From Candidatus Nitronauta litoralis (GTDB lineage Bacteria > Nitrospinota > Nitrospinia > Nitrospinales > Nitrospinaceae): DNA of 64,000 nt. The notes below the pieces were generated by a model that was given only the letters and a program-made list of their open reading frames with translations, had not been told where the DNA came from and searched no databases. The position numbers and the translations under genes were made by a program. Of the stretch, positions 22,710 through 51,667 are shown one piece after another. Position 1 is the stretch's first letter; every line of letters begins with the position of its first letter. The stretch lies in contig CP048685.1 of the NCBI GenBank assembly GCA_015698285.1, forward strand, positions 3,100,001 to 3,164,000, in the 5' to 3' direction.

Positions 22710-24821
22710 TTACTCATTTTTGAGTTCAATTGAGTTTTTTAACAATGCTGTCATTTCTCTGTGGGGAATCGGTCTGCTGTAAAGGTAACCCTGAATCTGG
22801 TCGCAATTCATTTCACCCAGGAGTTTTCGTTCTTCTTCTTCCTCTACTCCTTCGGCAATAGTTTTTAATTTTAAAGTTTTGGCTAAAGTAATAATCGCTT
22901 TGACTATTGCCAGATTTCTTTGGTGTCGAAGATTATGAATAAAGGAACGATCAATTTTTAAATTATTGATGGGTAAATCTCTCAAGTAGGTCAATGATGA
23001 ATAACCTGTCCCAAAATCATCAATCGCAAGCTGTAGCCCCATATCCCGCATTTGGTTAATTCTGTTTAATGACCCTTTTGTGTCGTCAAGCAGTATGGAC
23101 TCGGTAAGTTCGAGTTCGAGTCCGGCGGGGTCAATAGCTGAAGATTTCAGGGCCTGATCCACTGTTTGCAGGATATTACTATGATTAAACTGGTAACCAG
23201 AAATATTGACAGCTACCGTGAACTCGTTGAGCCCAAGGTCCCTCCATTCCTTGATCGCCTTGCACGCTGTTTTAAGAATCCATTCCCCTAAAGGGACAAT
23301 CAGCCGACTGCTTTCCGCTACGGGAATGAATTCGCCTGGAGGGACCAGGCCTTTTTCAGGATGGTTCCAGCGTAGCAGAGCTTCAACGCCCATGATTTGA
23401 AAATTTTTGGTTGAAACTTTGGGTTGATAGTACAGAACGAATTCATCCTGCTCCAGGCCGCGATACAACGCATTCTCAATTTTTAATTGATTAGCCGCCT
23501 TGGTAAGAAGAGAGGAATTATAGAATTGATAAGTTCTTTTGCCATGTTCTTTAGCCCTGTGCATGGCAGCATCGGCTCCCATTAAAAGGGAAACCGGGTC
23601 TTTACCATCGTAAGGAAACAAGGCAATTCCAACACTTGCCCCTACCCGAACTTCTTCTTTTTCGATGGAGAAGGTTTGTTCAAAAAGACGCATCAGTTTT
23701 TTTCCCATTCTGGAAGCATCGCCTTCTTCTTTGATGTTTAGCAATATGAGAAATTCATCACCACCAAGCCTGGCGACAGTGTCCTCTTTCCTCAAACACT
23801 GAACTAATCGGTTTGCTATCAATTTCAAAAGCTCGTCACCCGCTTTTGGTCCGAGACCTTCATTTAAGGTTTTGAAATTGTCGATATCCAAAACGATGAT
23901 TGCGAACAGGGTGTCATGACGTTCTGCGTAGGCCTGGAAGAACTGAATCCGGTCATTGACCAGATTCCGGTTGGGTAGGCCCGTTAGTGAATCGTAATTA
24001 TTCTGATTTTCCCCTGTTCCATTCAGGGGCTTCGAGCCATTTTTATCCTTGAAGATTGCAATAAAAAGGGATTCCGAAGAATGTCCCATTGGCTGGATGA
24101 TGGCATCGGTAATATATTCTTCATCATTTTTCAGGTTCACAAGAGCTTGAAACTTTAGAGAGTTTTGCTTGCCTGCAATAATCTGATCCATTTGGGAAAT
24201 AAATTTTCCTTTGGATAAATCCTTTATCAAATCATAGATGGTCAAGTTTTGAATATCCATTGGGAGATATCCTAATCGCCTTACCGCAGCAGTGTTGGAG
24301 CGAACCAATCGGCCACTTGGAAAGTCAAATATCAGGATTTCACTCGGGGAACTGTCTATAATCTGATGGATTTGGGAGGATAATTGCTCTTGTGATTTGA
24401 TTTTGTGATAACCCAGAGCCAGGTCTTGAAGGTTTCCGCGGACACGCTGGCACATGGTGGTCAATACTGTTGAGAAAAAAGAGTGATGGTTGACTAAAAG
24501 TTTCTGGAAAAAGTCATTGGGTATCTCCATTAACTGACTTTCACTGGAGGCTATTATGGTTGCTGATCTGGGCTTTTCTTCGATTACAGCCATCTCTCCA
24601 AAAAACTGACCCTGCCAAATAAGGGCAATTTCCTGTCCTTCCTTATATAAGGCCAGACGTCCTGAAATGACGGCGTAAATTGTCTCACCAGGATCCCCTT
24701 CCTCGAACAAGGTCTCGTTTGCATCCAGATGAATAAGAGACGAGATTGTAATCAATTCTTCTAGAACTTCATCAGGGAGATATTGAAAGAGCTCGATTTC
24801 CTTTAGTTGGGAAACTTCCAT
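22710..24821 (-). CDS. cNMP-binding, PAS, GGDEF, EAL protein
   Basis: 703 residues, soluble. Domains in order: cyclic-nucleotide-binding domain (about 10-125; GQFFGEMAVIEEKPRSAT is the phosphate cassette), PAS (about 150-265), GGDEF (about 275-440), EAL (about 450-700). The diguanylate cyclase site is intact (RLGGDEF) and has an RxxD inhibition site five residues before it (RKED). The phosphodiesterase site also looks intact (EALLRWNHP, LELTES, DDFGTGYSS). It could make and break c-di-GMP under control of cAMP. The operon at 44164-51667 encodes a possible cAMP source, and motA-motB-pilZ follows directly downstream. Confidence 0.92.
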   Translation of the reverse strand: MEVSQLKEIELFQYLPDEVLEELITISSLIHLDANETLFEEGDPGETIYAVISGRLALYKEGQEIALIWQGQFFGEMAVIEEKPRSATIIASSESQLMEIPNDFFQKLLVNHHSFFSTVLTTMCQRVRGNLQDLALGYHKIKSQEQLSSQIHQIIDSSPSEILIFDFPSGRLVRSNTAAVRRLGYLPMDIQNLTIYDLIKDLSKGKFISQMDQIIAGKQNSLKFQALVNLKNDEEYITDAIIQPMGHSSESLFIAIFKDKNGSKPLNGTGENQNNYDSLTGLPNRNLVNDRIQFFQAYAERHDTLFAIIVLDIDNFKTLNEGLGPKAGDELLKLIANRLVQCLRKEDTVARLGGDEFLILLNIKEEGDASRMGKKLMRLFEQTFSIEKEEVRVGASVGIALFPYDGKDPVSLLMGADAAMHRAKEHGKRTYQFYNSSLLTKAANQLKIENALYRGLEQDEFVLYYQPKVSTKNFQIMGVEALLRWNHPEKGLVPPGEFIPVAESSRLIVPLGEWILKTACKAIKEWRDLGLNEFTVAVNISGYQFNHSNILQTVDQALKSSAIDPAGLELELTESILLDDTKGSLNRINQMRDMGLQLAIDDFGTGYSSLTYLRDLPINNLKIDRSFIHNLRHQRNLAIVKAIITLAKTLKLKTIAEGVEEEEERKLLGEMNCDQIQGYLYSRPIPHREMTALLKNSIELKNE

Positions 24822-36993: not shown

Positions 36994-39372
36994 TCAGCAT
37001 TTAAACTGGCTGACCAGCTCTTGAAGTTCAGCTGCCATTTTGGACATTTCTGAGGCTGCAGTTTGAGTATTCGTCGCTCCTTCTGTGGTGCTCTTGGCTG
37101 CGACGGCAACACCGGATATGTTTTCGGAAATTTCCGAACTGCTACGCGCTGCTTCATTCACACTTCGACCAATTTCGTTGGTGGTCGCCGTCTGTTCTTC
37201 GACAGCGCTGGCGATTGTGCTGGAGATGTCACTGATTTTGTTGATAACGCCTGTGATTTGGCCGATTGAATCAACCGCATTTGACGTATCTTCCTGGATT
37301 GCCTGGATTTTCTGACTGATTTCCTCAGTCGCTTTGGCTGTTGCATTGGCCAGCTCTTTAACTTCGTTGGCCACAACTGCAAACCCTTTGCCTGCCTCTC
37401 CGGCCCTGGCTGCTTCGATGGTTGCATTCAAGGCAAGTAGGTTGGTTTGTTCGGCGATGGAATTGATCACCTTAATGACGTGTCCAATTTCTGCACTACT
37501 ATCACCAAGTTTGGAAACCTTTTCATTGGCAGTCTTGGCCATTTCAACAGCAGATGAGGCCACCTGGGCAGCTTGCGATGAACTCTCAGCAATTTCGCGA
37601 ATACTGGCGTTCATCTCTTCTGATGCCGCAGCCACCGCATTCATATTTTCGTTAACGGTAGTGGATGCATTGGTGACGACATCAGCCTGGGCAGAAGTCT
37701 CTTCCGCATTTCCTGACAACTGTTGACTCACTTCCGACATTTTGGAAGAGGAGTCCGTCAGGTAGTTTGAGTTTTGACCTATTCGAGCCATGCTTGTCCT
37801 CAGGGTTTTGAGGAAATTTGAAAGGCCCGCACCCATTTGTCCAATTGCATCGTTACCATTTACCATCACTTGTTTTGTCAAGTCACCACTAGCGGCAGCC
37901 TTGACGGTATCCAGCATTTGGTCTACCTTGGTTTGAAGTTCTACAGCCTGCTTCCGCTCGCGTTCTGTTATTTCTTTGCGCTCACGTGCTTGAACCAGCA
38001 TATCTCCAAGGGCGGTATGGAATTCTCCTTTCACTTCGAACTGGTCATTCTCCGTATTTCCCTGGAGGATTTCTTTTGAATGGTCCATGAAGCTTCTCAA
38101 CCCGGACATCAAACTATTGAATGATCCAAAAAGAATCCCCACCTCATCACGACTTGTTACTTCCAATTCTTCATGAGTCAGGTTTCCGTTACCAGCCTGT
38201 TCCATTGATTTGGCCATCTTTTGCATGGGTGTAATGACCATCTTGGAAAAGAATCCGGCAATTGCTATCAGGAAGGCAAGGCTAATACCTGTCGAGATAC
38301 CGACGGCATAGAAAATTTGATCCTGACTTTCCTTTGCCAACTGGGCAAATCTTGTGACGGCGGCGTCACTCGCCGTCCGTAGCTCGTTCCCAAGATTTAA
38401 AATGTCAAACTGAGCTTTTCGGTAAGGGTCTGAATTTGTTTCAGATTTGATCATCGAGTCAACAGCATTTGAAAAATTACCAAATAATCCTTCTACCCTG
38501 GTTAAATGGTTTTGAAGTTCAGGATCGTCAACCCTTTCGATTGAAGTGTATTCCGTCATTTTTAAATCCAGGGGAAATTCTCCGCCCTTTTGAACTGCCC
38601 TGAGAGTATCAACAAAAATCTTTTTTGCGTTATTAAACTCGGACATATTTGCATTCAGTTCAGATTTACCGACTCCGATGGCATTGGAATAGACCAGACG
38701 GTAGTTTCGGATTCCCAGCATATCACCTACTTTAAAATCTTTTCCTTTCATTGCAGTATGGCAACCTGCGCAGGCCTGAACTGTTGCAATATCTGCAGTA
38801 TAAAGGCCCATATAGAGTTTTCCGCTCTCCTCGTATACTTTAGAGAAGATCTTTTTGGGGTTTTTCTTTAAAAACCGGTTAGCTTCTTTGTCTAACGAGG
38901 TTGCTAATACCTGTTTGGGATTGATTGGGTCTTCTGAAATAATACTTACTGTAAAGTCCCGGCCTTCTCCGACTTTTTCATTGACCATACGTGTGAAAGT
39001 AGCAGGAAACGGAATGGCTGGATGGCCTTCATTATCGGGGTCCATACTGATCGGGAATTGGGTGGCTTTTACTGGTTTAACAACCATCTGCGTATAAGTA
39101 CCCCGCATTTTGGTTATAAAACGGTCCAAATCATTGGTCTGTTTTTCAATAGTCTTTTTTCGGCTTTGGGACATGCCATAACCCAGTACAGATTTAGACA
39201 TAGCCTGGGTCAACATTCTTTGTCGTCCGAGGGCGTTTGTTATCTTGGTGTCATCACTGGACTTCAACAGGTTTGATGTGATTGCCCACCCAGAACCAAT
39301 CAGCACTAGAAATAGAAGTGTAAAAGCTCCAAATATTTTTTTCTTTAATGAAAGATTTTTGATCATTTCCAT
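36994..39372 (-). CDS. Methyl-accepting chemotaxis protein with periplasmic c-heme domain (1)
   Basis: 792 residues. Membrane helix 1 at about 12-33, a large periplasmic sensor, helix 2 at about 353-376, HAMP, then the signalling domain to the end. The sensor resembles DUF3365/Tll0287-type heme domains ([15 protein letters not shown]) and has one c-heme site CAGCH at 201-205, so it probably senses redox state or a gas such as O2 or NO. The hairpin tip is canonical ([24 protein letters not shown]). It is transcribed alone with its own terminator. Its close relative at 40558-42993 sits with the chemosensory operon. Confidence 0.9.
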
Positions 39373-39791: not shown

Positions 39792-40568
39792 TTGAGTTTG
39801 TATTCCCTATTTGTTGGAATTTTTCTTGTGAACGTATTTTTTGTGTCGCCTTTGTGGGCACAGGGTAAAAGTTCAGCAACATTGCTTTCGCCGTCAACCC
39901 AAATTGAATTTGTCAAAATTCCTGGAGGGTGTTTTATTATGGGAGACAATCATGGATATAAATATGAACAGCCAGAACATGAGGTGTGTGTTGATGAATT
40001 TTTTATCGGTCGTTATGAAGTTACCCAGAAGCAATGGCGTGCTTTGATGGGGCCAAACCAGGCCAGGTTTGTTGGTGATGAATTGCCCGCCCAAAGGATT
40101 TCCTGGAATGACGCTGTTGAATACATTCGTCGTTTGAATGAAAAGGAGAAAACAAACCGGTACCGACTCCCGACAGAGGCCGAATGGGAGCGGGCTGCCC
40201 GCGCGGGAACGAATACCCGATATTATTGGGGAGATGAAATCAGGAATGAATATGCCTGGTACTATGGTTCCTCGAAATTCACCGCACACCGGGTAGGAAC
40301 GGCACTTCCAAACGCTTTTGGATTATATGATATGTTGGGAAATGTCTGGGAGTGGGTGAGTGATTGGTACGATAGCAAGTATTTTAAACGAAGCCAAAAA
40401 GATAATCCGAAGGGCCCTGAATCCGGAACAATGCGAACACGTAGAGGGGGTTCCATGGCAAACCTGGCTTCTTATGTTCGCTCTGCCTCAAGGTACAGAA
40501 GCAAACCCGATAAGCGGCATTACATTTTTGGGTTCAGGCTGGCTCAGTCGGCTAATGTTACTGATTGA
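39792..40568 (+). CDS. Exported formylglycine-generating-enzyme-like (SUMF1) domain protein
   Basis: 258 residues from TTG 39792; no ATG precedes the signal peptide (VFFVSPLWAQG), so the start is uncertain. The domain is the FGE-sulfatase fold (FVKIPGGCFIMGD, RYEVTQKQW, YRLPTEAEWERAARAGT, NVWEWVSDWYD, RRGGSM). The Cys pair used by true formylglycine-generating enzymes near the C-terminus is not seen, so it is probably a binding or structural domain. It lies between two heme chemoreceptor genes and runs convergent to the second; the stops overlap. Confidence 0.82.
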   Translation: MSLYSLFVGIFLVNVFFVSPLWAQGKSSATLLSPSTQIEFVKIPGGCFIMGDNHGYKYEQPEHEVCVDEFFIGRYEVTQKQWRALMGPNQARFVGDELPAQRISWNDAVEYIRRLNEKEKTNRYRLPTEAEWERAARAGTNTRYYWGDEIRNEYAWYYGSSKFTAHRVGTALPNAFGLYDMLGNVWEWVSDWYDSKYFKRSQKDNPKGPESGTMRTRRGGSMANLASYVRSASRYRSKPDKRHYIFGFRLAQSANVTD

Positions 40569-42993
40569 TCTTGAAGCGCCCAACCAGGTTTTTTAAATGT
40601 GAGGACATCTCGGATAGCCTGTTTGTTACAGCAGATGTTTGTTTTATTGCCGCTGAAGACTGGCGGCTGCCATCAACTATTTCTTTCAGAGCAGAAAGAA
40701 CCTGTTCTGTCGCAGTCTTTTGTTGTTGGGTCGATAATGAAATCTGGGCCGCAGCATCGGCTGTGGTTTTGGCACCAGATACCAGATTTTCCAGCTCAGA
40801 TATAGTTTGAGCTGTTAACTCAGTTCCCGCCTTGATGTTTTTTGAACCCCGTTCTGAATTGACCACAAGTCGATTAATAGCTTGCTGAATTTCTTCGATT
40901 TTGTTTTCGATTTCTCCGGTTGATTCCATCACGTTATCTGCAAGACGGCGGATTTCGACTGCCACAACGCCAAATCGTTTTCCTGCCTCGCCTGCGCTGG
41001 AAGCTTCAATTGCCGCATTAAAAGCGATCAGTTTTGTTTGATCAGCGATGTTGTTGATGATTTCCATAACCTTTCCGATTTCTTCAGAGCGAGTTCCCAA
41101 TTCAACAATTTCACGAATGCTGACCTGATTGTCGTCAGATATGGTGTCCATTTTAATTTTCAGATTTTCCATTGCTTCCCTGCCCCGTTCCGATTCATGC
41201 AAGGCGTTATTCGATATTTCGGCAACTGCGTTTGCATTATCGGCCACTTGGGAAGAGGAAATGGAAAGTTCTTCAACTGTTGTTGAAATCTCTGTGACCG
41301 AAGTGGATTGTTGAGCAGCTACCGCAGCTTGATCCTGCACGGAGGCTGAAATTTCACTGGAAGAGATTGCCAGTTCATTTGCGTTATTTGAGATTTCCTG
41401 CATGCTGTCCACCAGCTTTTCAAAAAACTGAATTAACCCTTCTCCCATTTGACCGATTGGTGACTCCCCTGTTACCGTAACCTTGTGGGTCAGGTCTCCC
41501 TTGGCAGCAGCGCTTACCACTTCCAGGATACTGTTAACCTTTTTCTGGAGTTCTTCTGCCTGACGGTGGCGTTCTTCAGACATTTCCTTGAATAAACGGT
41601 CGGCTTCCTGTTTATCACGCAACTCTTTCGTCATTTGCCCAAAAGCGTGAGCAAGGTCACCTTTCATTTCATATTGTTTGGAGAGGTTGCCTGCGGCGAT
41701 GTCTTCTGCCTGATTGACTACCTCCTTCATTGTGTCGAGCAAAGTGTTATAAATATCCTGGAGGGTGCCTATCTCATCAGACGAATTCACATGAAGTTTG
41801 TCCTGAACAAAGTTTCCTTTAGAGATTTCCTTGAGTTGTGTGGAAACATTGAGGATTGGACGTACAATTTTTGCTGCGAAATAGTAATAAATTCCCATGA
41901 TAATCAGGACAGTAAGGATTATGGCACTGATGACAGTCCATCGGATTGTGACTTGATTCTGGTTCGATAGGGCAGTGTATTGAGTTACCAGATCATCGCT
42001 GAGTTTCCTCAAATCGTTAGATGACACCACAATGGATTGCTGGGCTTTTCGGTAAGGAAGTGAATTGACTTCAGAGCTCATCAGGGAATTGACGTGGTTC
42101 ACAAACTCCTTGAATTGGCGGATGACTTCCCTGATTTTATTTTGAATAACTTCATTGTCTATGGCATTGACTGCCTTAAAGTGGGTCATTGCCAGATCTT
42201 CGGGATATTCTCCTCCGTTTTTCATTGCTGAAATTGTGCGGTCGAAAACTTCTTTGGCGCGTTGATACTCTTCCAGACTCGGGTTGAGCTCCTCTTTTCC
42301 CAGGCTGATGTCTTCTGAAAACATCAGATAAAATTTCCGAATCCCCATCAACTCGCCAACCTTGAATGGTTTGCCTTTTAGAGCAGAATGGCATTCCGCA
42401 CAGGCTTTTACTGTGGCTCGATCAGATGAATAAAGCCCTATGTAAAGGCGGCTGTCTTCTTCAAATACCTTGCTGTATATTTTTTCAGGTGAGGCCGTTA
42501 GGAATTCATAAGCCTTTTTGTCCATTTCCGTTTTGAGGCCCTTTTGGGGATTGATCGGATCCTTGTTGATAATATCGATTTTATAAAACTGGTTTTCTCC
42601 AAATTTCTCATTCACCATTCGGGTGAAAGTTGCAGGGAAGGGGATCGCCGGGTGTGCTTCGGAGCTCGGGTCCATACTGATTCCAAGGTTGACCTTTTTT
42701 GCGGCGCTGACTATATCTTCGGTAAAGATCGCCCTCATTTGGGTTATATAGTGATTCAGGGATTCGACATTTTGTTCAATCGTCCGGCGCCGGCTTTTTG
42801 CCATGGCATTGCTTAAAGCGGATTTACCCATGGCCTGGCTGAGCATACGCTGACGACCAAGTGCGTTGGTGATGTCAGCATCTTCTGCCGCATTGTTCAG
42901 CGAATTGAAAATTACCGCACCTGAGACGATTACGACTGCTCCCATGACGGCAAACATGATAAAGACCTTTTGCTTGATAGAGAGATTATTCAT
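40558..42993 (-). CDS. Methyl-accepting chemotaxis protein with periplasmic c-heme domain (2)
   Basis: 811 residues, same build as the 36994-39372 receptor. Helix 1 at about 8-30, periplasmic DUF3365-like sensor with heme site CAECH (198-202), helix 2 at about 350-373, HAMP and signalling domain. Its tip differs from the first (DQTKLIAFNAAIEASSAGEAGKRF), the form I associate with non-flagellar chemosensory systems. It follows the CheW-like gene by 154 bases on the same strand and is the natural receptor for the CheA operon. Confidence 0.9.
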   Translation of the reverse strand: MNNLSIKQKVFIMFAVMGAVVIVSGAVIFNSLNNAAEDADITNALGRQRMLSQAMGKSALSNAMAKSRRRTIEQNVESLNHYITQMRAIFTEDIVSAAKKVNLGISMDPSSEAHPAIPFPATFTRMVNEKFGENQFYKIDIINKDPINPQKGLKTEMDKKAYEFLTASPEKIYSKVFEEDSRLYIGLYSSDRATVKACAECHSALKGKPFKVGELMGIRKFYLMFSEDISLGKEELNPSLEEYQRAKEVFDRTISAMKNGGEYPEDLAMTHFKAVNAIDNEVIQNKIREVIRQFKEFVNHVNSLMSSEVNSLPYRKAQQSIVVSSNDLRKLSDDLVTQYTALSNQNQVTIRWTVISAIILTVLIIMGIYYYFAAKIVRPILNVSTQLKEISKGNFVQDKLHVNSSDEIGTLQDIYNTLLDTMKEVVNQAEDIAAGNLSKQYEMKGDLAHAFGQMTKELRDKQEADRLFKEMSEERHRQAEELQKKVNSILEVVSAAAKGDLTHKVTVTGESPIGQMGEGLIQFFEKLVDSMQEISNNANELAISSSEISASVQDQAAVAAQQSTSVTEISTTVEELSISSSQVADNANAVAEISNNALHESERGREAMENLKIKMDTISDDNQVSIREIVELGTRSEEIGKVMEIINNIADQTKLIAFNAAIEASSAGEAGKRFGVVAVEIRRLADNVMESTGEIENKIEEIQQAINRLVVNSERGSKNIKAGTELTAQTISELENLVSGAKTTADAAAQISLSTQQQKTATEQVLSALKEIVDGSRQSSAAIKQTSAVTNRLSEMSSHLKNLVGRFKINQ

Positions 42994-43147
42994 CTCTTGG
43001 GGTCTCCCGGGGATGATTGAATGAAGGGTAATTCCTTGACTATTCCAGCTCTACAGGCAATAACGAATAAACTGAATGTATGATTCAGGGATTGAAAAGC
43101 CACCCTGGATGAACTCGTTCTTACTTGAATATCGGGGCCATAAATTA

Positions 43148-43585
43148 CTAATTCCATACTTCCTCTTGTTGAGACAGGCACCCGGCGGCCAGTTTGTGGC
43201 AATCGATCAGCAGGACGGGCTCTTTCTTTTCCAGGCTGATCCCCCACAGCCAGAGATGTTGTCGGACTTTTTCCACGATAAAGGGAAAAGACCTTATGGC
43301 CTCAATGGGGATATAAGCAATGTCCTGGGGTTGATCGATCTGTAAAGCTACCGTATTTCCCTGAAAATGAATGGTAATCACATGTGGGTCTTTATACACC
43401 AATGGACTGGCAGTTAATGGCATCAAACGGTCAAGCAGGAACACTTCCACGTCCGGATGTGTCCAATGGTCGCCTTCGACCAATTCATCAATCTGCTCAA
43501 GGTCAGTCGCAAACAGGGTGTCATGCATTCTAAACACCAGGGCTTGAAAACCTTCTATTTGTAATTTTTGAAGAGCTGTTGTCAT
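43148..43585 (-). CDS. CheW-like protein, divergent
   Basis: 145 residues. It starts like a CheW domain (ALVFRMHDTLFATDLEQIDELVEG), and the middle includes AYIPIEAIRSFPF and IDCHKLAAGCL. The domain is short and lacks the classic CheW hydrophobic core motifs, so it could be an adaptor that binds the receptor or CheA. It lies 19 bases after cheW and precedes the receptor gene. Confidence 0.6.
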   Translation of the reverse strand: MTTALQKLQIEGFQALVFRMHDTLFATDLEQIDELVEGDHWTHPDVEVFLLDRLMPLTASPLVYKDPHVITIHFQGNTVALQIDQPQDIAYIPIEAIRSFPFIVEKVRQHLWLWGISLEKKEPVLLIDCHKLAAGCLSQQEEVWN

Positions 43586-43604
43586 CGATTGCCTTTATAA
43601 AAAC

Positions 43605-44135
43605 TCAATCCGCATTCTTTTCTGTTATTTTTTCGAAAAGTTTACCGGCGTCAAGCAAGGTAACGTTGTGATGGCGGTATGAAAACTCTCCATCGACAAA
43701 ATAACGTATTGTGTCATTCAAGGTTGAGATAGGTTTCTGTATCGATTCTTTTGGAGCGTCCAGAACATCCTGGACCGTATCTACCAGAATACCTGACCGT
43801 ATTCCATTTTTTTCTGCAATAACAATCCGACTGTCCACACCTGTTTCTGTGGGCGGTTGCCCCATAAATAAATTTACATCTATGACAGATTGAATGTCCC
43901 CCCGGACGTTTATGATCCCAAGAATGAAAGGGGGAGTGGCGGGAACCCGGACTATTTTCAAGACGGTCAAAATTTCCTTCACGCTATCGCCATGGAGTGC
44001 ATAGTAATGACTCCCAAGGGTGAAAATAACAAGCTTGACCTTTTCCTCTTCCTTCTGAACATCAAGGGTTTGGTCCTTGCGCTTGTGGATTTCCTCAAGG
44101 ATTCGATCGCTTTTAAAATTTTCTGTTTCTTCCAT
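43605..44135 (-). CDS. cheW: CheW adaptor protein
   Basis: 176 residues from ATG 44135 (MEETENFK). The frame is open further upstream into the cyclase gene, but those residues are not CheW-like. CheW links receptors to CheA. An N-terminal charged segment (about 40 residues) leads to the CheW domain (VKLVIFTLGSHYYALHGDSVKEIL, PFILGIINVRGDIQSVIDV, GILVDTVQDVL). It lies between the cyclase and CheW-like genes in the operon. Confidence 0.92.
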   Translation of the reverse strand: MEETENFKSDRILEEIHKRKDQTLDVQKEEEKVKLVIFTLGSHYYALHGDSVKEILTVLKIVRVPATPPFILGIINVRGDIQSVIDVNLFMGQPPTETGVDSRIVIAEKNGIRSGILVDTVQDVLDAPKESIQKPISTLNDTIRYFVDGEFSYRHHNVTLLDAGKLFEKITEKNAD

Positions 44136-44163
44136 CGATTTAATTGTCGTTTTAAATTTCCAG

Positions 44164-46416
44164 TTATTTTGAACGCATTTCCCAGGCACCATCCCAATCA
44201 AAAGCCGGTGGGTTGTTTTGGAAAAACTCGGACCTTTCTCTATAAACAATTGCGGCACGATCCTGCGGATTTATTTCACTGGCACGCATAAAACAACGAA
44301 TGGCACCCTGCCAATCTCTGGATTGGTATAAGCCAAGTCCTTCCTGAAAAACCCCAAAACTTTCATCCAGACGTAGGGAACTGTTGTTATCGTAAAAACC
44401 AAGGACCTCGTAAATTATAACGGGCTTTGTCTTTCCTTTCACCTTGATCCAGTCCAATTTGCGTGTTCGATAGTTTTCCTTTAATTTTCTAAATGTATTT
44501 TCACTGATTAAAATATTGGTGCCGAAATATTTATTCAATCCTTCCAGACGGGAAGCCAGGTTGACTCCGTCTCCAATACAGGTGTAATCCATCCTTTTTT
44601 CGGATCCGATGTTTCCGGAAAGAACTTCATCTGTATTGATTCCTATTCCCATGGCTATTGGATCTTTTCCCAATTCAACCCGGCTTTTATTTAATCCTTC
44701 CAGGGAGTTCACCATGTTGATGGCTGCTTTTACCGCAAAGTCCGCATCCTGTCCACTTTTGAATGGGGCTCCAAAGACCGCAAGGATGGCATCCCCTATG
44801 TATTTATCAAGGATTCCATTGCATTGGAAAATCTGATCAACCATCACGGTGAAATATTCGTTGAGCATTGTTACTGTTTCCTTTGCTCCAAGTTTTTCTG
44901 TGATAGTGGTGAAATCCCGAATATCCGAAAATAAGATAGACGCTTCCTGTATCTGTCCCCCCAGCATGGATTGACCGCCTTCCAATAACTTGTCCGCCAG
45001 TTCTTTGGTCATATAACGCGCCAGGGTGCCTTTCACTCTTTTTTCTGTCGTGATGTCTTCAAGCACCAGCATGGTTCCGATCAGTTGCTGTTTGAAATTT
45101 TTTAGAGGAACAAATGTAAGGTTCATGGGTACTCGCTTATCCTCTTCCAGCGTGATTTCGGCATCCATGACTATGGAAGGTCGTCTGGACTTTACTACTC
45201 CATCAACCTTGTCCAGAATCCAGTGGTTTGGGCCACTGCAAAAATCGTCGAGTTTTCTGCTGATAAGTTGTTCAAGTTTTAAGTCAAGAATTCTCTGTGC
45301 AGCCGCGTTGGCAGTTATGATTCGGTAATCGCTATCCAGGGTGATTACCCCGTTGGTGAGGCTTTCCAGGACATTTTCATTGTAGTTTTTTATATTGAGG
45401 ACTTCTTCAAGCAGTCGCTCCGTCTTTTCTTCCAGCCTTAGATTATTCAGGGCGACTGCAGCTTGTGAGGCCAGTGATTGCACAACCTCGAGGTGTGAAT
45501 CAGAAAATGGAATAATTTTCCCCGTTGATAAATCCGTGGCATTGAGCAATTGTAAGACTCCCTGCACTTCGTTGAAACGATCCACCATTGGCACAACCAG
45601 CATCGACTGTGATCGGTAATTGGAAGTCCTGTCAAAATTTTTGGGTCCAGTGAAATCGAACAGCTCTGATTCATAAACATCCGGAATGTTGACCGGTTTT
45701 TTATTTATCGCGACATAACCGGAAACATTGGATTCCCTGATATCCAAGGGGGGGAACTCGATTTTCCCCCCTGACTTTCCCCCCAGGAAGACATTCAGTG
45801 TTCGGTTTTGCACAATTTTAAATTCAAGTTTTCCATTTTCTACAAGGTACAAAGTCCCAGCGTCAGCGTTGGTGAGGGATCTTCCATGGGTGATGATGAT
45901 TTCCATGAGAGAGGGGAAGTTTTTTTCAGATGAAACCGCCAACCCGATCTCGGTCATGGTTTCAACAATGGTTCCAAGTTCCTGATTTTTTTTCGTGATG
46001 TCGAGTAGGAGCTGGCGGTTTTGGTCTACGATCCGTTTTTTCTCCAGGACCTGTTCAATGGAAAGAAGGACTGTATCCTGGAGGTTCTCATCTTTTAAAA
46101 GATAATCATTGGCCCCCAGGTTGATCGCCTCTATAGCCACTGCGACTTCATTATTTCCGGACAAAACGATAATTGGAATTTCTGAGTTTTCCTCGGTGCG
46201 CAACTTGCGGATAAGTCCTAATCCATCGAGGACCGGCATGTGGATGTCGGAAATAATAACGTCCAAACCGGATTCTGAATTGATCAGGTTTATTCCTTCC
46301 TGGCCATTCTCCGCTGTAACCACCAGGTATCCTGAAGATTCGAGGATATCAGCGAGGATATCTCGAACAAAAGAGTCGTCATCGACTACAAGTATTTTGA
46401 TAGTTTGATTATTCAT
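44164..46416 (-). CDS. Receiver-GAF-PAS class III adenylate cyclase with C-terminal TPR
   Basis: 750 residues, soluble. Domains in order: receiver (1-125; phospho-Asp57 in ISDIHMP), GAF (about 150-330), PAS (about 340-450), class III cyclase (about 480-660), and a short TPR-like tail (FQEGLGLYQSRDWQGAIRCF). The two metal Asp are in LFSDIRDFT and KYIGDAILAVFG. Lys in DKYIGD and Asp in MDYTCIGD are the pair that selects ATP, so cAMP is the expected product. It overlaps cheA by four bases, so the receiver is very likely phosphorylated by that CheA. Confidence 0.92.
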   Translation of the reverse strand: MNNQTIKILVVDDDSFVRDILADILESSGYLVVTAENGQEGINLINSESGLDVIISDIHMPVLDGLGLIRKLRTEENSEIPIIVLSGNNEVAVAIEAINLGANDYLLKDENLQDTVLLSIEQVLEKKRIVDQNRQLLLDITKKNQELGTIVETMTEIGLAVSSEKNFPSLMEIIITHGRSLTNADAGTLYLVENGKLEFKIVQNRTLNVFLGGKSGGKIEFPPLDIRESNVSGYVAINKKPVNIPDVYESELFDFTGPKNFDRTSNYRSQSMLVVPMVDRFNEVQGVLQLLNATDLSTGKIIPFSDSHLEVVQSLASQAAVALNNLRLEEKTERLLEEVLNIKNYNENVLESLTNGVITLDSDYRIITANAAAQRILDLKLEQLISRKLDDFCSGPNHWILDKVDGVVKSRRPSIVMDAEITLEEDKRVPMNLTFVPLKNFKQQLIGTMLVLEDITTEKRVKGTLARYMTKELADKLLEGGQSMLGGQIQEASILFSDIRDFTTITEKLGAKETVTMLNEYFTVMVDQIFQCNGILDKYIGDAILAVFGAPFKSGQDADFAVKAAINMVNSLEGLNKSRVELGKDPIAMGIGINTDEVLSGNIGSEKRMDYTCIGDGVNLASRLEGLNKYFGTNILISENTFRKLKENYRTRKLDWIKVKGKTKPVIIYEVLGFYDNNSSLRLDESFGVFQEGLGLYQSRDWQGAIRCFMRASEINPQDRAAIVYRERSEFFQNNPPAFDWDGAWEMRSK

Positions 46417-49163
46417 TGCACCAGATTCTGGATGGCATTGGTTAACTGTTGTGGATCAAAGATCCCCTTGACAAGGTAGCCATTGGCGCCGGCATCCATG
46501 CCCCTTTGTTTGTCCGCCTCATCACTGCGAGAACTTAAAATGATTATTGGAGTGTGCCGGTACCTGTTTTCCTGACGCAATGACTCCGTCAGGGTAAAGC
46601 CGTCCATCCGGGGCATTTCGATATCGGTCAGTATCAGGTCGTACTGATTTTCCATGGCTTTTTCAAACCCTTCGACCCCATCGGCAGCGAGATCTACCTT
46701 GTAACCTTTGGCTTCAAGAATATTTTTTTCAACATGCCGCGTACTGACCGAGTCGTCTACAACCAGAATGCGGAGTTTCCCTGGCCCTGAATCGAAAGCT
46801 TTTTCCTGGAACCATTCTTCACGTGATTCACGGGCGAGGCCGAACAACCGTGTAATTTGCAGGACTAGTACGATCTCATTTTTTCCGGACAAGGTAATAC
46901 CTGAAACCAGTTCGTTGTGTTTCATGTGATCCGGCAGAGGTTTAATTTCCATATCTTCTTCCGTCACAATTTCATCAACAATCAGGCCAAGCATTTCGGT
47001 ACCCATAGCGACGATCAGGATCACCAGGTTGCTTTGGGATAATTTTTGATCAGTGAGAGCACCGTCCTCAGTGTCCAGAAGTGTTTTTAATTCAGTGACC
47101 GGGATGATCTGGTCTCTGAGCGATACGGCATACCGGTTGACCACTTCGATGAGGGAATCGGTCGGAACCCGAATAATTTCACGTATTGAATTAAGAGGGA
47201 TCGCAACCTGGGTTTCGCCAAGACTCACCAGCATAACTCTCATCACGGCTAGAGTCAGTGGAAGACGAATGAAAAAACTGGTTCCCTTGTTTTTCTTTGT
47301 TTCAATTTGAAGGGAACCCTTAAGGTGCTTGACAATGTTATCCCGAACAACATCCATCCCAACACCACGCCCCGAAACTTCAGTGACAAGCGCTGTTGTG
47401 CTGAAGCCTGGACGGAAAATCAGATTGATAATCTCTGACTCCGGCAGGTTTTGGGCGGTTTCTTCATCGTAAATTTTTTTCATCACTGCTTTTTCACGGA
47501 TTTTATCCACCGGAATCCCGGAGCCATCATCAGTTATTGTTATCAACACATGTCCGCCTTCGTAAGCCGCAGAGATGGAAATTGTCCCTGATTCCGACTT
47601 TCCCTGATCGTTACGAATATCCGGCGTTTCCAGGCCATGATCGATACTGTTGCGCACCATGTGGAGAAGTGGATCGCCAATCCTCTCTATAATTTTTTTG
47701 TCTAACTCGGTTTCACCACCTGTTATTTCAAGTTTGACCTGCTTGCCACAGGCATTGGAAATATCACGAACCAATCGTGGAAAACCATCCAGTACGGTGG
47801 AAAGGGGGAGCATCCGCATTCGCAGAACTTTTTCCCGAAGATCGTCTGTGACGAGCGATTGAAAACTCATGACATCACGAGTTTGAGATGAAAGCGCTTT
47901 CAGCTTGTCATGAATGGAACGGGCTTCATCTATAATCTCTGCAGTTTGACCGTTTAATGGGCCTTCAGGGGATTTCTGGACGGTTCCAAGTTGATCCAGG
48001 TATTTGTTAAACAGCTTGGTGACCTCATCGATATCCAGCACATTCTGCTTCATCCGAATATGGTTGGATACGATTTCTCCCATTAGCTTTACCGTGTCGT
48101 CCAGCTTGGATGTGTTGATCCGGACGGTATCACTCATGGCAGTCTTGAACATGGTTTGAGGTGTTTGGTCCTGCTTTTTTACAAGGCCACTTTCCCCGCC
48201 GTCCTCCGAATCATGAACAGCTTTCGTGAGTTGACTCGATTTAAGAGGTTTAACCTTATCTCCCCGGGCTGCCGATTCCAGCGTTTCAATGAGTGGGCGG
48301 ATGTCGGTATCAAGAGTTTTCCCCTGTGATATTTCCTCAACAAACTCAGAAATGAGATCTACCGATTTTAGAAGCAGGTCGCACAGGGGGTTATTGAATG
48401 AGAACCTATTGTTGCGAAGGGCATCCAAAACGTCCTCCACCCTGTGAGCAAGAAGTGAGATCGGTTTTAACCCGAGGATTTTGGAGGAACCTTTCAAAGT
48501 GTGGGACACACGAAAGATTTGATCTAAAATTTCCAGGTTTCCGGGTTGCGTTTCCAGATTGATCAAACCTTCGTTCAATGTGTTGATGTGTTCACGAGCT
48601 TCGTCCACAAATCGTGCAACAAATTTGCTTCGATCAAATCCCCCTGATTTTTTTTCAGTGGGGGCTTTCTTGGCTGAAACTTCATCGGGTTGAGCGGCGG
48701 TTTGTTCCTGGACCTGGGGTTGTGGCTGGGAGGGTACAGGTGGTTCTTCTGGTTTGGGGATTGCCGGAGCCGTGTATTCACCGGAAAGAGCCTGGTCGAG
48801 GTTCTCCAGGATGTTATCAATGTCCGTGGTAATGGTTTCACCACGCGCAATCTGGTTTATGAAAACATCCAGCAGGTCAGATGAACTAACAAGTAGGGAG
48901 TGGATATCCTCCGTCATGTCGAGTTCCTGTTTTTGAGAACTTCTCAGAATCTCTTCCAACTTCAGGGAAATAGCAGCAACCTGTTGGAACCCCAGGATTT
49001 TTGCTGATCCTTTAATGGTATGCGCTGTCCTTACCAGTTCATCATCGACTCTTAAATTTTCAGGGGTTTCCTTGCTGGCATCCAGTCCACGCTTCAGGGT
49101 TCCCAGGTGTTCCCGCGCTTCCTGGATGAACCTCGGTATAAATTTGGATTTGTCGAATACCAT
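46413..49163 (-). CDS. cheA: Hybrid CheA histidine kinase with two Hpt domains and C-terminal receiver
   Basis: 916 residues. Two N-terminal Hpt domains carry His48 (RTAHTIKGSAKIL) and His221 (RVSHTLKGSSKIL). Dimerisation, the ATPase (HMVRNSIDHGLE, DDGSGIP, GRGVGMDVV) and a CheW-like domain follow. A receiver at about 797-916 has phospho-Asp847 (LILTDIEMPRMDG). Hybrid CheAs of this kind (ChpA, WspE, FrzE) serve systems controlling pili, c-di-GMP or cAMP more than flagella. It starts 17 bases after the cheR stop and overlaps the cyclase gene. Confidence 0.95.
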   Translation of the reverse strand: MVFDKSKFIPRFIQEAREHLGTLKRGLDASKETPENLRVDDELVRTAHTIKGSAKILGFQQVAAISLKLEEILRSSQKQELDMTEDIHSLLVSSSDLLDVFINQIARGETITTDIDNILENLDQALSGEYTAPAIPKPEEPPVPSQPQPQVQEQTAAQPDEVSAKKAPTEKKSGGFDRSKFVARFVDEAREHINTLNEGLINLETQPGNLEILDQIFRVSHTLKGSSKILGLKPISLLAHRVEDVLDALRNNRFSFNNPLCDLLLKSVDLISEFVEEISQGKTLDTDIRPLIETLESAARGDKVKPLKSSQLTKAVHDSEDGGESGLVKKQDQTPQTMFKTAMSDTVRINTSKLDDTVKLMGEIVSNHIRMKQNVLDIDEVTKLFNKYLDQLGTVQKSPEGPLNGQTAEIIDEARSIHDKLKALSSQTRDVMSFQSLVTDDLREKVLRMRMLPLSTVLDGFPRLVRDISNACGKQVKLEITGGETELDKKIIERIGDPLLHMVRNSIDHGLETPDIRNDQGKSESGTISISAAYEGGHVLITITDDGSGIPVDKIREKAVMKKIYDEETAQNLPESEIINLIFRPGFSTTALVTEVSGRGVGMDVVRDNIVKHLKGSLQIETKKNKGTSFFIRLPLTLAVMRVMLVSLGETQVAIPLNSIREIIRVPTDSLIEVVNRYAVSLRDQIIPVTELKTLLDTEDGALTDQKLSQSNLVILIVAMGTEMLGLIVDEIVTEEDMEIKPLPDHMKHNELVSGITLSGKNEIVLVLQITRLFGLARESREEWFQEKAFDSGPGKLRILVVDDSVSTRHVEKNILEAKGYKVDLAADGVEGFEKAMENQYDLILTDIEMPRMDGFTLTESLRQENRYRHTPIIILSSRSDEADKQRGMDAGANGYLVKGIFDPQQLTNAIQNLVQ

Positions 49164-49180
49164 ATTAAAGGATATTTCCT

Positions 49181-50671
49181 TCAGTTGACCGTCAATTGAT
49201 TTAACTTGTCCCTGCAGATGCCTGCAATCTGTGACTCTGTGTATTCACTGCGAAAAACCGGTAAACCATGATTTTCAAATCCGGAATTCTCTAATAAATT
49301 AAGGGTGACATTGTATTCCCTCCGAGCCGAATCATTATCTCCGGTTTCCCGGTAACTGTCTGCCAGATGATAATGAGCCAACCAACAGGAGGGGGCCAGG
49401 TAAATTGCTTTTCTCAGGCGGTGGACCGCCTCGGGGTGATCTGTGTTTTTTTGTGATGCCAGACCCAGCAGGAGATAGGGAGCCGCAAACAGCCCATCTT
49501 TTTTAAGAGCCTGTTGGCATACCTGTTCAGTTTCCTGGGCCCTGTTCAGTTGTAACAATATAAGGGCCTTTAAACTATAGGCCGAAAGAAAATCCGGATT
49601 CTTAGTGACCAGTTCTTCTACTGTTATTAAAGCTTCTTCCCATTGTTCATCAGTTGTTAAACTCAGGGCTTTAGAAAGAGTTCTTTCTTCGTCGGATAAG
49701 TTCGGTTGAATGTTTTTGGTTTGGTTTTTATTCGTTTCTTTTAGCAGCGCCTTTTTATCTGGAAGTCTGGATAGTTTTTGAACAGGAGATCCAGAAAGGA
49801 GATCGGACGATTCCGAAGCCTCAGTTTCTTTACAAAAGTAGAATATTTCTTCTTCTCTTTTTAAAGCCAATCGCCCGGTATCATGATGTGAAATTTCGAC
49901 TGAACCTGTCACCAGATATCCACCAGGTGTTAAAAGTCGGGCGAGGTTTTGATATATCTTTTCCTGGGTTTCATTTTCGTAGTAAATGGAGACATTTCGA
50001 TAAAAAATCAGGTCGGCACCCCTGGCTTCTTCGGGATACGGCCAGTCTGCAAGATTGTGTTGCACAAAACGGACATTTTCGCGGATAGATGCTTTCAAAA
50101 CATTTCGATTTCCCGCGAACGGGCTGAAATAATTATTTAAAACTTCGGAGCCCACACCACGGAAAGAATACGCCCCATAAACAGCCATACTGGCCTTGTG
50201 CAGAACATCATGATCAATGTCCAGACCGACCACTTCAATCTGATCGGTTATTCCTTCGCCAAATACTTCAACCAATGCCAGGACCAGGGAATAGGGCTCT
50301 TCACCACTGGAACAACCGGCACTGACTATTTTGATAGGCTGGCCATAGTAGGCACGGTTCTTTAATAACTCCGGACAAATTACACGGGTAACCAGGCGGT
50401 AATGGGGGTTCTCACGGAAGAAATAAGTTTCCTTATTTGTTAAAAGGCTGATCAGGTGGGAAACTTCTTCTGGGTCTTCCTGAAAAAAGAATCGGTATTG
50501 TTCAATTCCCTTTGATTCAGTGGCCCGGATACGGGCTTCGACAGCTTCGCCAAGAAACCGGAAGAAATCAGGTTTGAAATTGAGGTGGAACCTTTTTTGG
50601 ATTCCGTTCTGAAAATGTTTCAGATCCATCCTGTTCGCCTCTGTTTCTTGCCTCATCATTTCAGATAGCAT
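49181..50671 (-). CDS. cheR: CheR methyltransferase with C-terminal TPR domain
   Basis: 496 residues. The CheR core (about 15-285) has TNKETYFFRENPHY, the SAM motif SAGCSSGEEPYS and LIFYRNVSIYY. TPR repeats fill about 330-480 (PDFLSAYSLKALILLQLNRAQE, FAAPYLLLGLA, SCWLAHYHLADSYRETGD). TPR-CheR proteins occur in alternative chemosensory systems such as Frz and Wsp. The ATG abuts the cheB stop, and cheA follows. Confidence 0.94.
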   Translation of the reverse strand: MLSEMMRQETEANRMDLKHFQNGIQKRFHLNFKPDFFRFLGEAVEARIRATESKGIEQYRFFFQEDPEEVSHLISLLTNKETYFFRENPHYRLVTRVICPELLKNRAYYGQPIKIVSAGCSSGEEPYSLVLALVEVFGEGITDQIEVVGLDIDHDVLHKASMAVYGAYSFRGVGSEVLNNYFSPFAGNRNVLKASIRENVRFVQHNLADWPYPEEARGADLIFYRNVSIYYENETQEKIYQNLARLLTPGGYLVTGSVEISHHDTGRLALKREEEIFYFCKETEASESSDLLSGSPVQKLSRLPDKKALLKETNKNQTKNIQPNLSDEERTLSKALSLTTDEQWEEALITVEELVTKNPDFLSAYSLKALILLQLNRAQETEQVCQQALKKDGLFAAPYLLLGLASQKNTDHPEAVHRLRKAIYLAPSCWLAHYHLADSYRETGDNDSARREYNVTLNLLENSGFENHGLPVFRSEYTESQIAGICRDKLNQLTVN

Positions 50672-51667
50672 TTAAAGTTTTGCCAAATACTGCCCAATTT
50701 CTTCAATGGGCAACACTTTGTCGATGCAACCCGTTTCAATTGCCTGCCGGTTCATTCCATAGACTACACTGCTGGATTCATCTTGCGCGATAGTCTGTCC
50801 CCCTTTATCCCGAATGTTTTTCATCCCGGCTACGCCATCCGTTGCCATACCCGTCAAAATAACGCCCACACTTTTCGGGCCATAGTTTTGGGCTACAGAA
50901 TTCAGGAGGACATCGCAATTAGGAGCATAACGGTCTTTCTCGCTGCGTTCTTCAAACTCAATTACTCCACCCAATCCAACTTTCATATTTTTTTCTGAAG
51001 GTGAAATGTAGATTGTATTGGCTGCCAGCCGGGTTCCCTGTTTTCCAAGTTCCAGTTTTTGCGGGCACACCTGATTCAGCCATTCCACCAGACCATCAGT
51101 AAAACCGTCCTCAATATGCTGGGCAATGACAATCGGGTGCGGAAAATTTTCTGGGAGGTGAGGGAGCATTTGCGACAAAGCTTTGGGTCCACCAGTGGAA
51201 CAGGCGATGGCAATGACTTTGGCATCACGATGATTTCCTATCACTTGCGGTTTAACAGTAGTTTTTGGCCGAATGTGCCCGATGACCCGGACTTTTGCCA
51301 GCAACCTGATCCTGGACGTCAGTTTTTCACACTTGTCAGGGTCCAGATCGTCCTTTGGGAAAACATCCAATGCTCCCCGCGAACAGGCATCAAAGGCTAC
51401 TTTGGAATCGTTGTTGCTTGAAATAACCAGGATGGGGCGGGCGCATTGTTGCATGATCTGGTCGATGGCCTCCTGGCCACTCATGACCGGCATCATCAAA
51501 TCCATGGTAACCAGATCAGGTTTAAGCTCCAGTGTTTTTTCCACACCTTCTTTGCCATTAGAGGCTATTCCGATAACCTCAATATCAGGGTCCGATTCAA
51601 TCATTTCTTTCAACATCTGCTGAGCCGTCACACTGTCTTCAACAATCAAAACACGGAACAACGCCAT
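50672..51667 (-). CDS. cheB: Chemotaxis protein-glutamate methylesterase CheB
   Basis: 331 residues. A receiver (phospho-Asp56 in TMDLMMPVMSG) is joined to the methylesterase. The catalytic triad is Ser157 (ACSTGGPKA), His184 (AQHI) and Asp277 (GMATDG). It removes methyl groups from receptors, opposing CheR. It is the first gene of the operon cheB-cheR-cheA-cyclase-cheW-cheW-like, followed by the receptor. Confidence 0.96.
   Translation of the reverse strand: MALFRVLIVEDSVTAQQMLKEMIESDPDIEVIGIASNGKEGVEKTLELKPDLVTMDLMMPVMSGQEAIDQIMQQCARPILVISSNNDSKVAFDACSRGALDVFPKDDLDPDKCEKLTSRIRLLAKVRVIGHIRPKTTVKPQVIGNHRDAKVIAIACSTGGPKALSQMLPHLPENFPHPIVIAQHIEDGFTDGLVEWLNQVCPQKLELGKQGTRLAANTIYISPSEKNMKVGLGGVIEFEERSEKDRYAPNCDVLLNSVAQNYGPKSVGVILTGMATDGVAGMKNIRDKGGQTIAQDESSSVVYGMNRQAIETGCIDKVLPIEEIGQYLAKL

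Follow-up and report, generated by a model that had tools for sequence, protein, structure and literature searches.

A chemosensory operon of Candidatus Nitronauta litoralis that looks built for CheA control of a class III adenylate cyclase

Introduction

The described systems closest to the locus reported here are the Wsp system of Pseudomonas and cluster 2 of Halomonas titanicae KHS3. The locus is an operon joining chemosensory genes to a class III adenylate cyclase gene; it lies in a stretch of 64,000 nucleotides, hereafter the window (G000:C1:3100001-3164000), of the 3.92-Mb single-contig genome of Candidatus Nitronauta litoralis. The host belongs to the Nitrospinaceae (phylum Nitrospinota), which are marine nitrite oxidizers, and nitrite oxidation is predicted for it as well. 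Wsp (WspA-F, WspR) resembles the operon in its hybrid CheA, CheR-TPR, CheB, two CheW, receptor, and receiver-cyclase output. Pil-Chp of Pseudomonas aeruginosa is also chemosensory and raises cyclic AMP (cAMP), but through a separate, receiver-less cyclase, CyaB. H. titanicae cluster 2 has the order cheB-cheR-hybrid cheA-(cheY)-cyclase regulator-cheW-degenerate cheW ("CheW3") and a long receptor, and is alike in these respects (PMC5907407). A CheR fused to TPR repeats, present in this operon, is given as typical of clusters with alternative cellular functions (ACF) in PMC3447774; Fig. 7 of that paper, from 2012, catalogs fusions of REC with a mononucleotidyl cyclase (cd07302) among the response regulators of cheR-TPR clusters, as a category listing and not as systems studied there. 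With these fusions the operon shares a receiver plus nucleotidyl cyclase in an ACF-type cluster.

The operon looks built for control of its class III adenylate cyclase by CheA, through the receiver of the cyclase; its output would be this enzyme and not the switch of a flagellum. Judging from sequence, conserved linkage, and domain content, it is likely to encode a Wsp-like ACF chemosensory pathway, in which a heme receptor would read nitric oxide (NO) and/or redox state, and CheA would phosphorylate the cyclase and set cAMP.

Gene layout and active residues

The genes follow one another on the minus strand (window coordinates, strand, description):

50672..51667, minus: cheB, REC plus methylesterase; Ser157, His184, and Asp277 conserved
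49181..50671, minus: cheR-TPR methyltransferase, PF01739 plus TPR_16
46413..49163, minus: hybrid cheA with Hpt1 (His48), Hpt2 (His221), H-kinase_dim, HATPase, CheW, and C-terminal REC (Asp847)
44164..46416, minus: REC-GAF-PAS-class III adenylate cyclase, 750 amino acids (domain profiles and ortholog alignment)
46075..46395, minus: receiver domain of the cyclase, residues 8-114; phospho-acceptor Asp57, codon 46246-46248
45448..45909, minus: GAF domain of the cyclase, residues 170-323
45037..45369, minus: PAS domain of the cyclase, residues 350-460
44422..44955, minus: class III cyclase catalytic domain, residues 488-665; PF00211 (Guanylate_cyc)
43605..44135, minus: cheW; ATG start at Met42 of a longer GTG open reading frame (ORF), 43605-44258
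43148..43585, minus: degenerate CheW-like protein, positional counterpart of the Halomonas "CheW3"
40558..42993, minus: MCP1, a methyl-accepting chemotaxis protein (MCP) with a PilJ-like N-terminal helix, a periplasmic sCache_heme domain (PF11845), two HAMP stretches, and an MCP signaling domain
42388..42402, minus: CAECH c-type heme attachment motif of MCP1, residues 198-202

From these coordinates, the spacing is 0 bases between cheB and cheR, 17 between cheR and cheA, an overlap of 4 between cheA and the cyclase gene, 19 between cheW and the cheW-like gene, and 154 between the latter and MCP1. The gap between the cyclase gene and cheW is 28 bases if cheW begins at Met42, most likely the true start, because orthologs begin there; with the GTG start, the ORF extends into the cyclase gene. 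The degenerate CheW matches the CheW profile with 30.1 bits (cut-off 23.5). Neither the cluster ORFs nor the domain profiles show a cheY in the cluster; the REC-GAF-PAS-cyclase stands in place of a lone CheY and is the only regulator besides CheB, as in ACF systems. A preliminary description, made from the sequence of this DNA, had proposed the one-strand gene order and spacing, the lack of cheY, a complete receiver with Asp57 in the cyclase, and a periplasmic CxxCH in the receptor; each of these is borne out, by the ORFs and their domains, by the receiver residues given below, and by the CAECH of MCP1.

In the alignment of seven orthologs of the cyclase, the receiver set Asp12, Asp13, Asp57, Ser86, and Lys108 is invariant, and so are the catalytic residues Asp498/Asp542 (metal), Lys538/Thr612 (purine), and Asn619/Arg623 (transition state). 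Relatives of the cyclase in the PDB are CyaB1, P. aeruginosa CyaB, and CyaC; CyaB is aligned with Thr at the position equivalent to Thr612. We take Lys plus Thr to be the pair that selects ATP in the CyaB1/CyaC subtype. With all signature residues present, the enzyme is assigned by sequence to class III, Lys/Thr subtype, as CyaB1/CyaC; the pair Lys538/Thr612 therefore leads us to expect an adenylate, not a guanylate, cyclase, with cAMP and not cyclic GMP as the product. Bicarbonate, to which some members of this subtype respond, is a possible extra input here. The protein ends in a short C-terminal tail, common to other Nitrospinota cyclases. The GAF domain was also considered as a cyclic-nucleotide-binding (NKFDE) domain and rejected, as the motif is incomplete by inspection.

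The catalytic residues of CheB and both Hpt histidines of CheA are present. Across seven genomes, the catalytic and phospho-acceptor residues of the cyclase, CheA, and CheB are conserved, with the exception of the Hpt1 histidine, which in the alignment of cyclase-linked CheAs is confined to this genus; the Hpt2 histidine is kept in all related kinases examined. The C-terminal REC of CheA is intact (Asp847), as would be expected if this receiver or CheB were the main phosphate acceptor and the cyclase receiver signaled unphosphorylated or served as a sink; in Wsp, however, which has the same layout, the hybrid CheA WspE phosphorylates a separate REC-GGDEF protein, WspR, and we consider such a role of the CheA receiver or CheB very unlikely. 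The genome holds one further CheA, within a second cluster, and a FliG gene.

Promoter and terminator scans gave signal at or below chance. A formylglycine-generating-enzyme-like gene (window 39792-40568) converges on MCP1 with an 11-base overlap at the MCP1 3' end; such a gene adjoins MCP1 in another genome (G010) too.

Conservation of the linkage and exchange of the output

Full-length cyclase orthologs occur in 7 of the 77 Nitrospinota genomes, with 54-100% identity and in three families of the order. In the contig scan, the nearest relatives with a name are Nitrospina sp. HKST-UBA01 (81% identity of the cyclase) and Nitrospinaceae OFTM7 (87%); there are two distant matches besides. All seven full-length orthologs are clustered with cheB, cheR, cheA, cheW, degenerate cheW, and MCP1; the cyclase gene of relatives, which the preliminary description had allowed might prove unlinked to cheA, is thus linked to it in every case. 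The gene set is not due to chance, because it recurs with all six other full-length orthologs, in three families; two arrangements of it are seen, cheB-R-A-AC-W-W2-MCP and W-W2-MCP-B-R-A-AC (AC, adenylate cyclase), hence it has been kept through rearrangement.

In the maximum-likelihood tree, the seven cyclase-linked CheAs form one clade (support 94/92); a wider clade, supported at 100/100, joins them to CheAs linked to HD-GYP, protein kinase, and GGDEF. The CheA of the operon also falls in a clade with CheA of the Halomonas cluster 2 type, the row of which is a long branch of unsure exact place. The regulators encoded next to these kinases vary in the effector domain. A REC-GAF-HD-GYP protein (G009, L053:9202-11166; locus L053:6854-11166, G009:C20) adjoins a CheA of the clade holding the cyclase-linked ones and is probably a second, c-di-GMP-degrading output (c-di-GMP, cyclic di-GMP); this genome has both the cyclase and the HD-GYP version. 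A REC-GAF-Ser/Thr protein kinase (G003:C219, L101:5720-7762) directly follows cheR-cheA-cheW-cheW2 and would be the output of that cluster. In more distant CheA clusters of the phylum, the regulators are of the REC-GGDEF or REC-HD type. Since the effector domain is swapped behind a REC-GAF front beside like cheA genes, the effector of the regulator is the likely output of the pathway. The simplest reading of these data is that the chassis is older and acquired the cyclase output once, in an ancestor belonging to Nitrospinales.

Relatives of the cyclase that lack the receiver (GAF-GAF-PAS-cyclase, 41-42% identity) occur in family f4; no che gene is found in the 13-kb contig of the only one with much flanking sequence. 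Judging from these proteins, REC is not required for the catalytic module to work, and one might suppose that the cyclase of the operon is driven mainly by GAF/PAS or by another kinase, its place among che genes reflecting co-expression and not phosphotransfer. However, the receiver residues are invariant in the seven orthologs, CheB is the sole other response regulator of the cluster, and the sister systems swap the effector behind REC-GAF while the che genes stay; we hold co-expression alone to be improbable.

Receptor and signaling array

The sensor of MCP1 matches PF11845 with 33.3 bits (cut-off 24.1), and the PilJ-like start scores just below the Pfam cut-off. A profile of the sensor searched against PDB sequences yields weak PilJ matches alone (E 0.002) and does not reach the known heme-Cache entries. 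The cysteines of CAECH are the only ones in MCP1, and CxxCH is present in 7/7 MCP1 orthologs. According to the family overview in a 2026 preprint (PMC12889525), 99% of sCache_heme domains carry CxxCH. Sequence thus supports a predicted c-type heme site in MCP1.

The preliminary description had the system read "redox state or a gas"; this can be kept in the narrower form of NO and/or redox, based on the PF11845 members treated in PMC12889525 and PMC8396549. In the former, a signaling-linked member without the axial Cys is described as binding NO stably, with slow release and no stable O2 complex; MCP1 likewise has no axial Cys, as in this NO-binding group. For the Geobacter sensors GSU0582 and GSU0935, PMC8396549 describes changes of spin state and ligation with redox, as well as binding of CO and NO by Geobacter receptors of the family. 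The same pathway would operate if the receptor read redox potential, by heme oxidation state and methionine ligand exchange, and not NO: the aligned sensors share several invariant Met residues, and the Geobacter sensors belong to the same family. The missing axial Cys and the ligand behavior of the NO-binding member speak against this version, and we regard it as unlikely, although less so than the two alternatives above; moreover, the two inputs can hold together. The choice between them we infer from family members; for a bacterium that takes part in the nitrogen cycle, NO would make sense as a cue.

The tip by which MCP1 would contact the kinase, QTKLIAFNAAIEASSAGEAGKRF, is unusual: it is identical in 7/7 orthologs and unlike the canonical one that the other three MCPs of the genome have. 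This speaks for a separate array, to which MCP1 is dedicated. One of these three is encoded close by:

36994..39372, minus: MCP2, with a sensor of the MCP1 family (PF11845), CAGCH, and a canonical receptor tip

MCP2 probably feeds another array, which suggests that one signal type reaches two arrays, via MCP1 and via MCP2. The genome contains six PF11845 matches, two of them in tandem within one 373-codon frame (L129/L130, G000:C1:3683474-3684445). Another likely O2/redox receptor of the genome is a chemoreceptor with a C-terminal hemerythrin domain (L110:5621-7510).

Proposed pathway and its significance

In the pathway we favor, the periplasmic c-type heme Cache domain of MCP1 would sense NO and/or redox state. 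A change of ligand or redox state at the heme would alter MCP1 and, through CheW and the hybrid CheA, set CheA autophosphorylation; phosphorylated CheA would then phosphorylate Asp57 of the REC-GAF-PAS cyclase, and GAF and PAS would relay the state of the receiver to the catalytic dimer, changing cAMP. The sequence itself shows the gene order, the domains, the intact active residues, the conserved linkage, and the distinct receptor class; phosphotransfer, the direction of regulation, the ligand, and the downstream effect are what we infer. CheR-TPR and CheB would tune MCP1 methylation and thus provide adaptation, the receiver of CheA is probably a phosphate sink or relay, and GAF and PAS may take up a second input.

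The cAMP would be read by several proteins of the genome that bind cyclic nucleoside monophosphates (cNMP). Among 15 cNMP-binding matches, ten loci were inspected, and all have the canonical FGE...R phosphate-binding cassette (cAMP-type). One lies in the window (22710-24821) on a cNMP_binding-PAS-GGDEF-EAL protein, a possible cAMP-controlled c-di-GMP enzyme; therefore, the genome has possible readers of cAMP, and cross-talk with c-di-GMP is conceivable. A stand-alone cNMP-binding domain protein (L068, G000:C1:617944-618198) has neighboring frames that are PilT-/PilC-like by eye and is a candidate link of cAMP to type IV pili. The genome also holds two 1157-1159-codon molybdopterin frames of nitrite oxidoreductase-like size, but with a family profile match below the cut-off.

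Several points weigh against this pathway. The PF11845 score of MCP1 is modest (33 bits), one ortholog reaches only 27, and a structure model of the sensor from a five-sequence alignment has a mean predicted local distance difference test (pLDDT) of 53.6, too poor to check the Cache fold, in which CxxCH would lie in an insert between strands 3 and 4. CheA could transfer preferentially to CheB or to the receiver that it carries itself, the cyclase receiver then acting unphosphorylated; phosphorylation could inhibit the cyclase instead of activating it; and CxxCH could serve redox sensing only. The Geobacter members are described in PMC8396549 as redox-linked, and also as binding CO.

A more specific version, that an NO-sensing periplasmic-heme array writes cAMP directly via CheA and the receiver-cyclase, is conserved in Nitrospinales, and has exchanged the output of its chassis (cAMP, c-di-GMP hydrolysis, protein kinase), we put forward tentatively, as somewhat short of probable. 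We know of no characterized chemosensory system with its own cAMP-making cyclase; a full-text search of open-licence papers found none on the function of a chemosensory REC-mononucleotidyl cyclase system. If the pathway holds, cAMP signaling gains methylation-based adaptation and array cooperativity and is tied to NO or redox, both natural signals for a bacterium that lives on nitrite. The sister operons, with different effectors behind one REC-GAF front, make it a testable question how arrays change their output.

Comparison with known systems

The preliminary description held that known relatives do not fuse a receiver to a cyclase within the operon. This was too strong: such fusions are listed in the cluster catalog of PMC3447774, and the chassis itself is known from PMC5907407, there combined with a diguanylate cyclase.

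The features of the Halomonas cluster 2-type chassis, that is, gene set and order, a degenerate second CheW (as taken from PMC5907407), and the tip QTKLIAFNA, are all found in the operon. Identities to the counterparts encoded in the Halomonas sp. PA16-9 cluster are 38% over 751 amino acids for CheA, 45% for CheB, and 42% for the MCP signaling region; the tip of the cluster 2-type receptor there (QTKLIAFNAALEASSAGE; QTKLIAFNAALEASSAGESGRRF) is nearly the same as QTKLIAFNAAIEASSAGEAGKRF of MCP1. The differences lie at the two ends of the pathway. The output of Halomonas cluster 2 is an Hpt-REC-REC-GGDEF diguanylate cyclase plus cheY, whereas the operon has REC-GAF-PAS-PF00211 without cheY; the Halomonas receptor examined gives a weak dCache match, whereas MCP1 has a heme sCache.

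With sCache_heme (PF11845/Tll0287) sensors MCP1 shares the family, CxxCH, and the place as a periplasmic MCP sensor; none is reported with a cAMP output in the parts of PMC12889525 and PMC8396549 that describe them. On pSymA of S. meliloti (L121:3569-9038), a PF11845 protein, a hybrid histidine kinase, a REC protein, and a HisKA-REC-class III cyclase are encoded in a row. There, a heme-Cache protein goes with a phosphorelay ending in a receiver-cyclase, but with an ordinary histidine kinase and without chemosensory proteins, which suggests that heme-Cache input and receiver-cyclase output have been paired more than once. Around REC-cyclases of rhizobial plasmids, no chemosensory gene is annotated in the three regions inspected, and domain scans of two of these show histidine kinases.

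Wsp differs from the operon in that WspR, with GGDEF, makes c-di-GMP, in gene order, and in that WspA answers surface contact and not heme ligands; domain profiles show no GGDEF in the operon cluster, which works like Wsp and is not Wsp. H. titanicae cluster 2 is the closest system overall, and Wsp is a functional analogue. The receiver-cyclase fusion itself is not new and the chassis has already been described; what is new is the class III cyclase output together with the heme receptor on a Halomonas-cluster-2/Wsp-like chassis.

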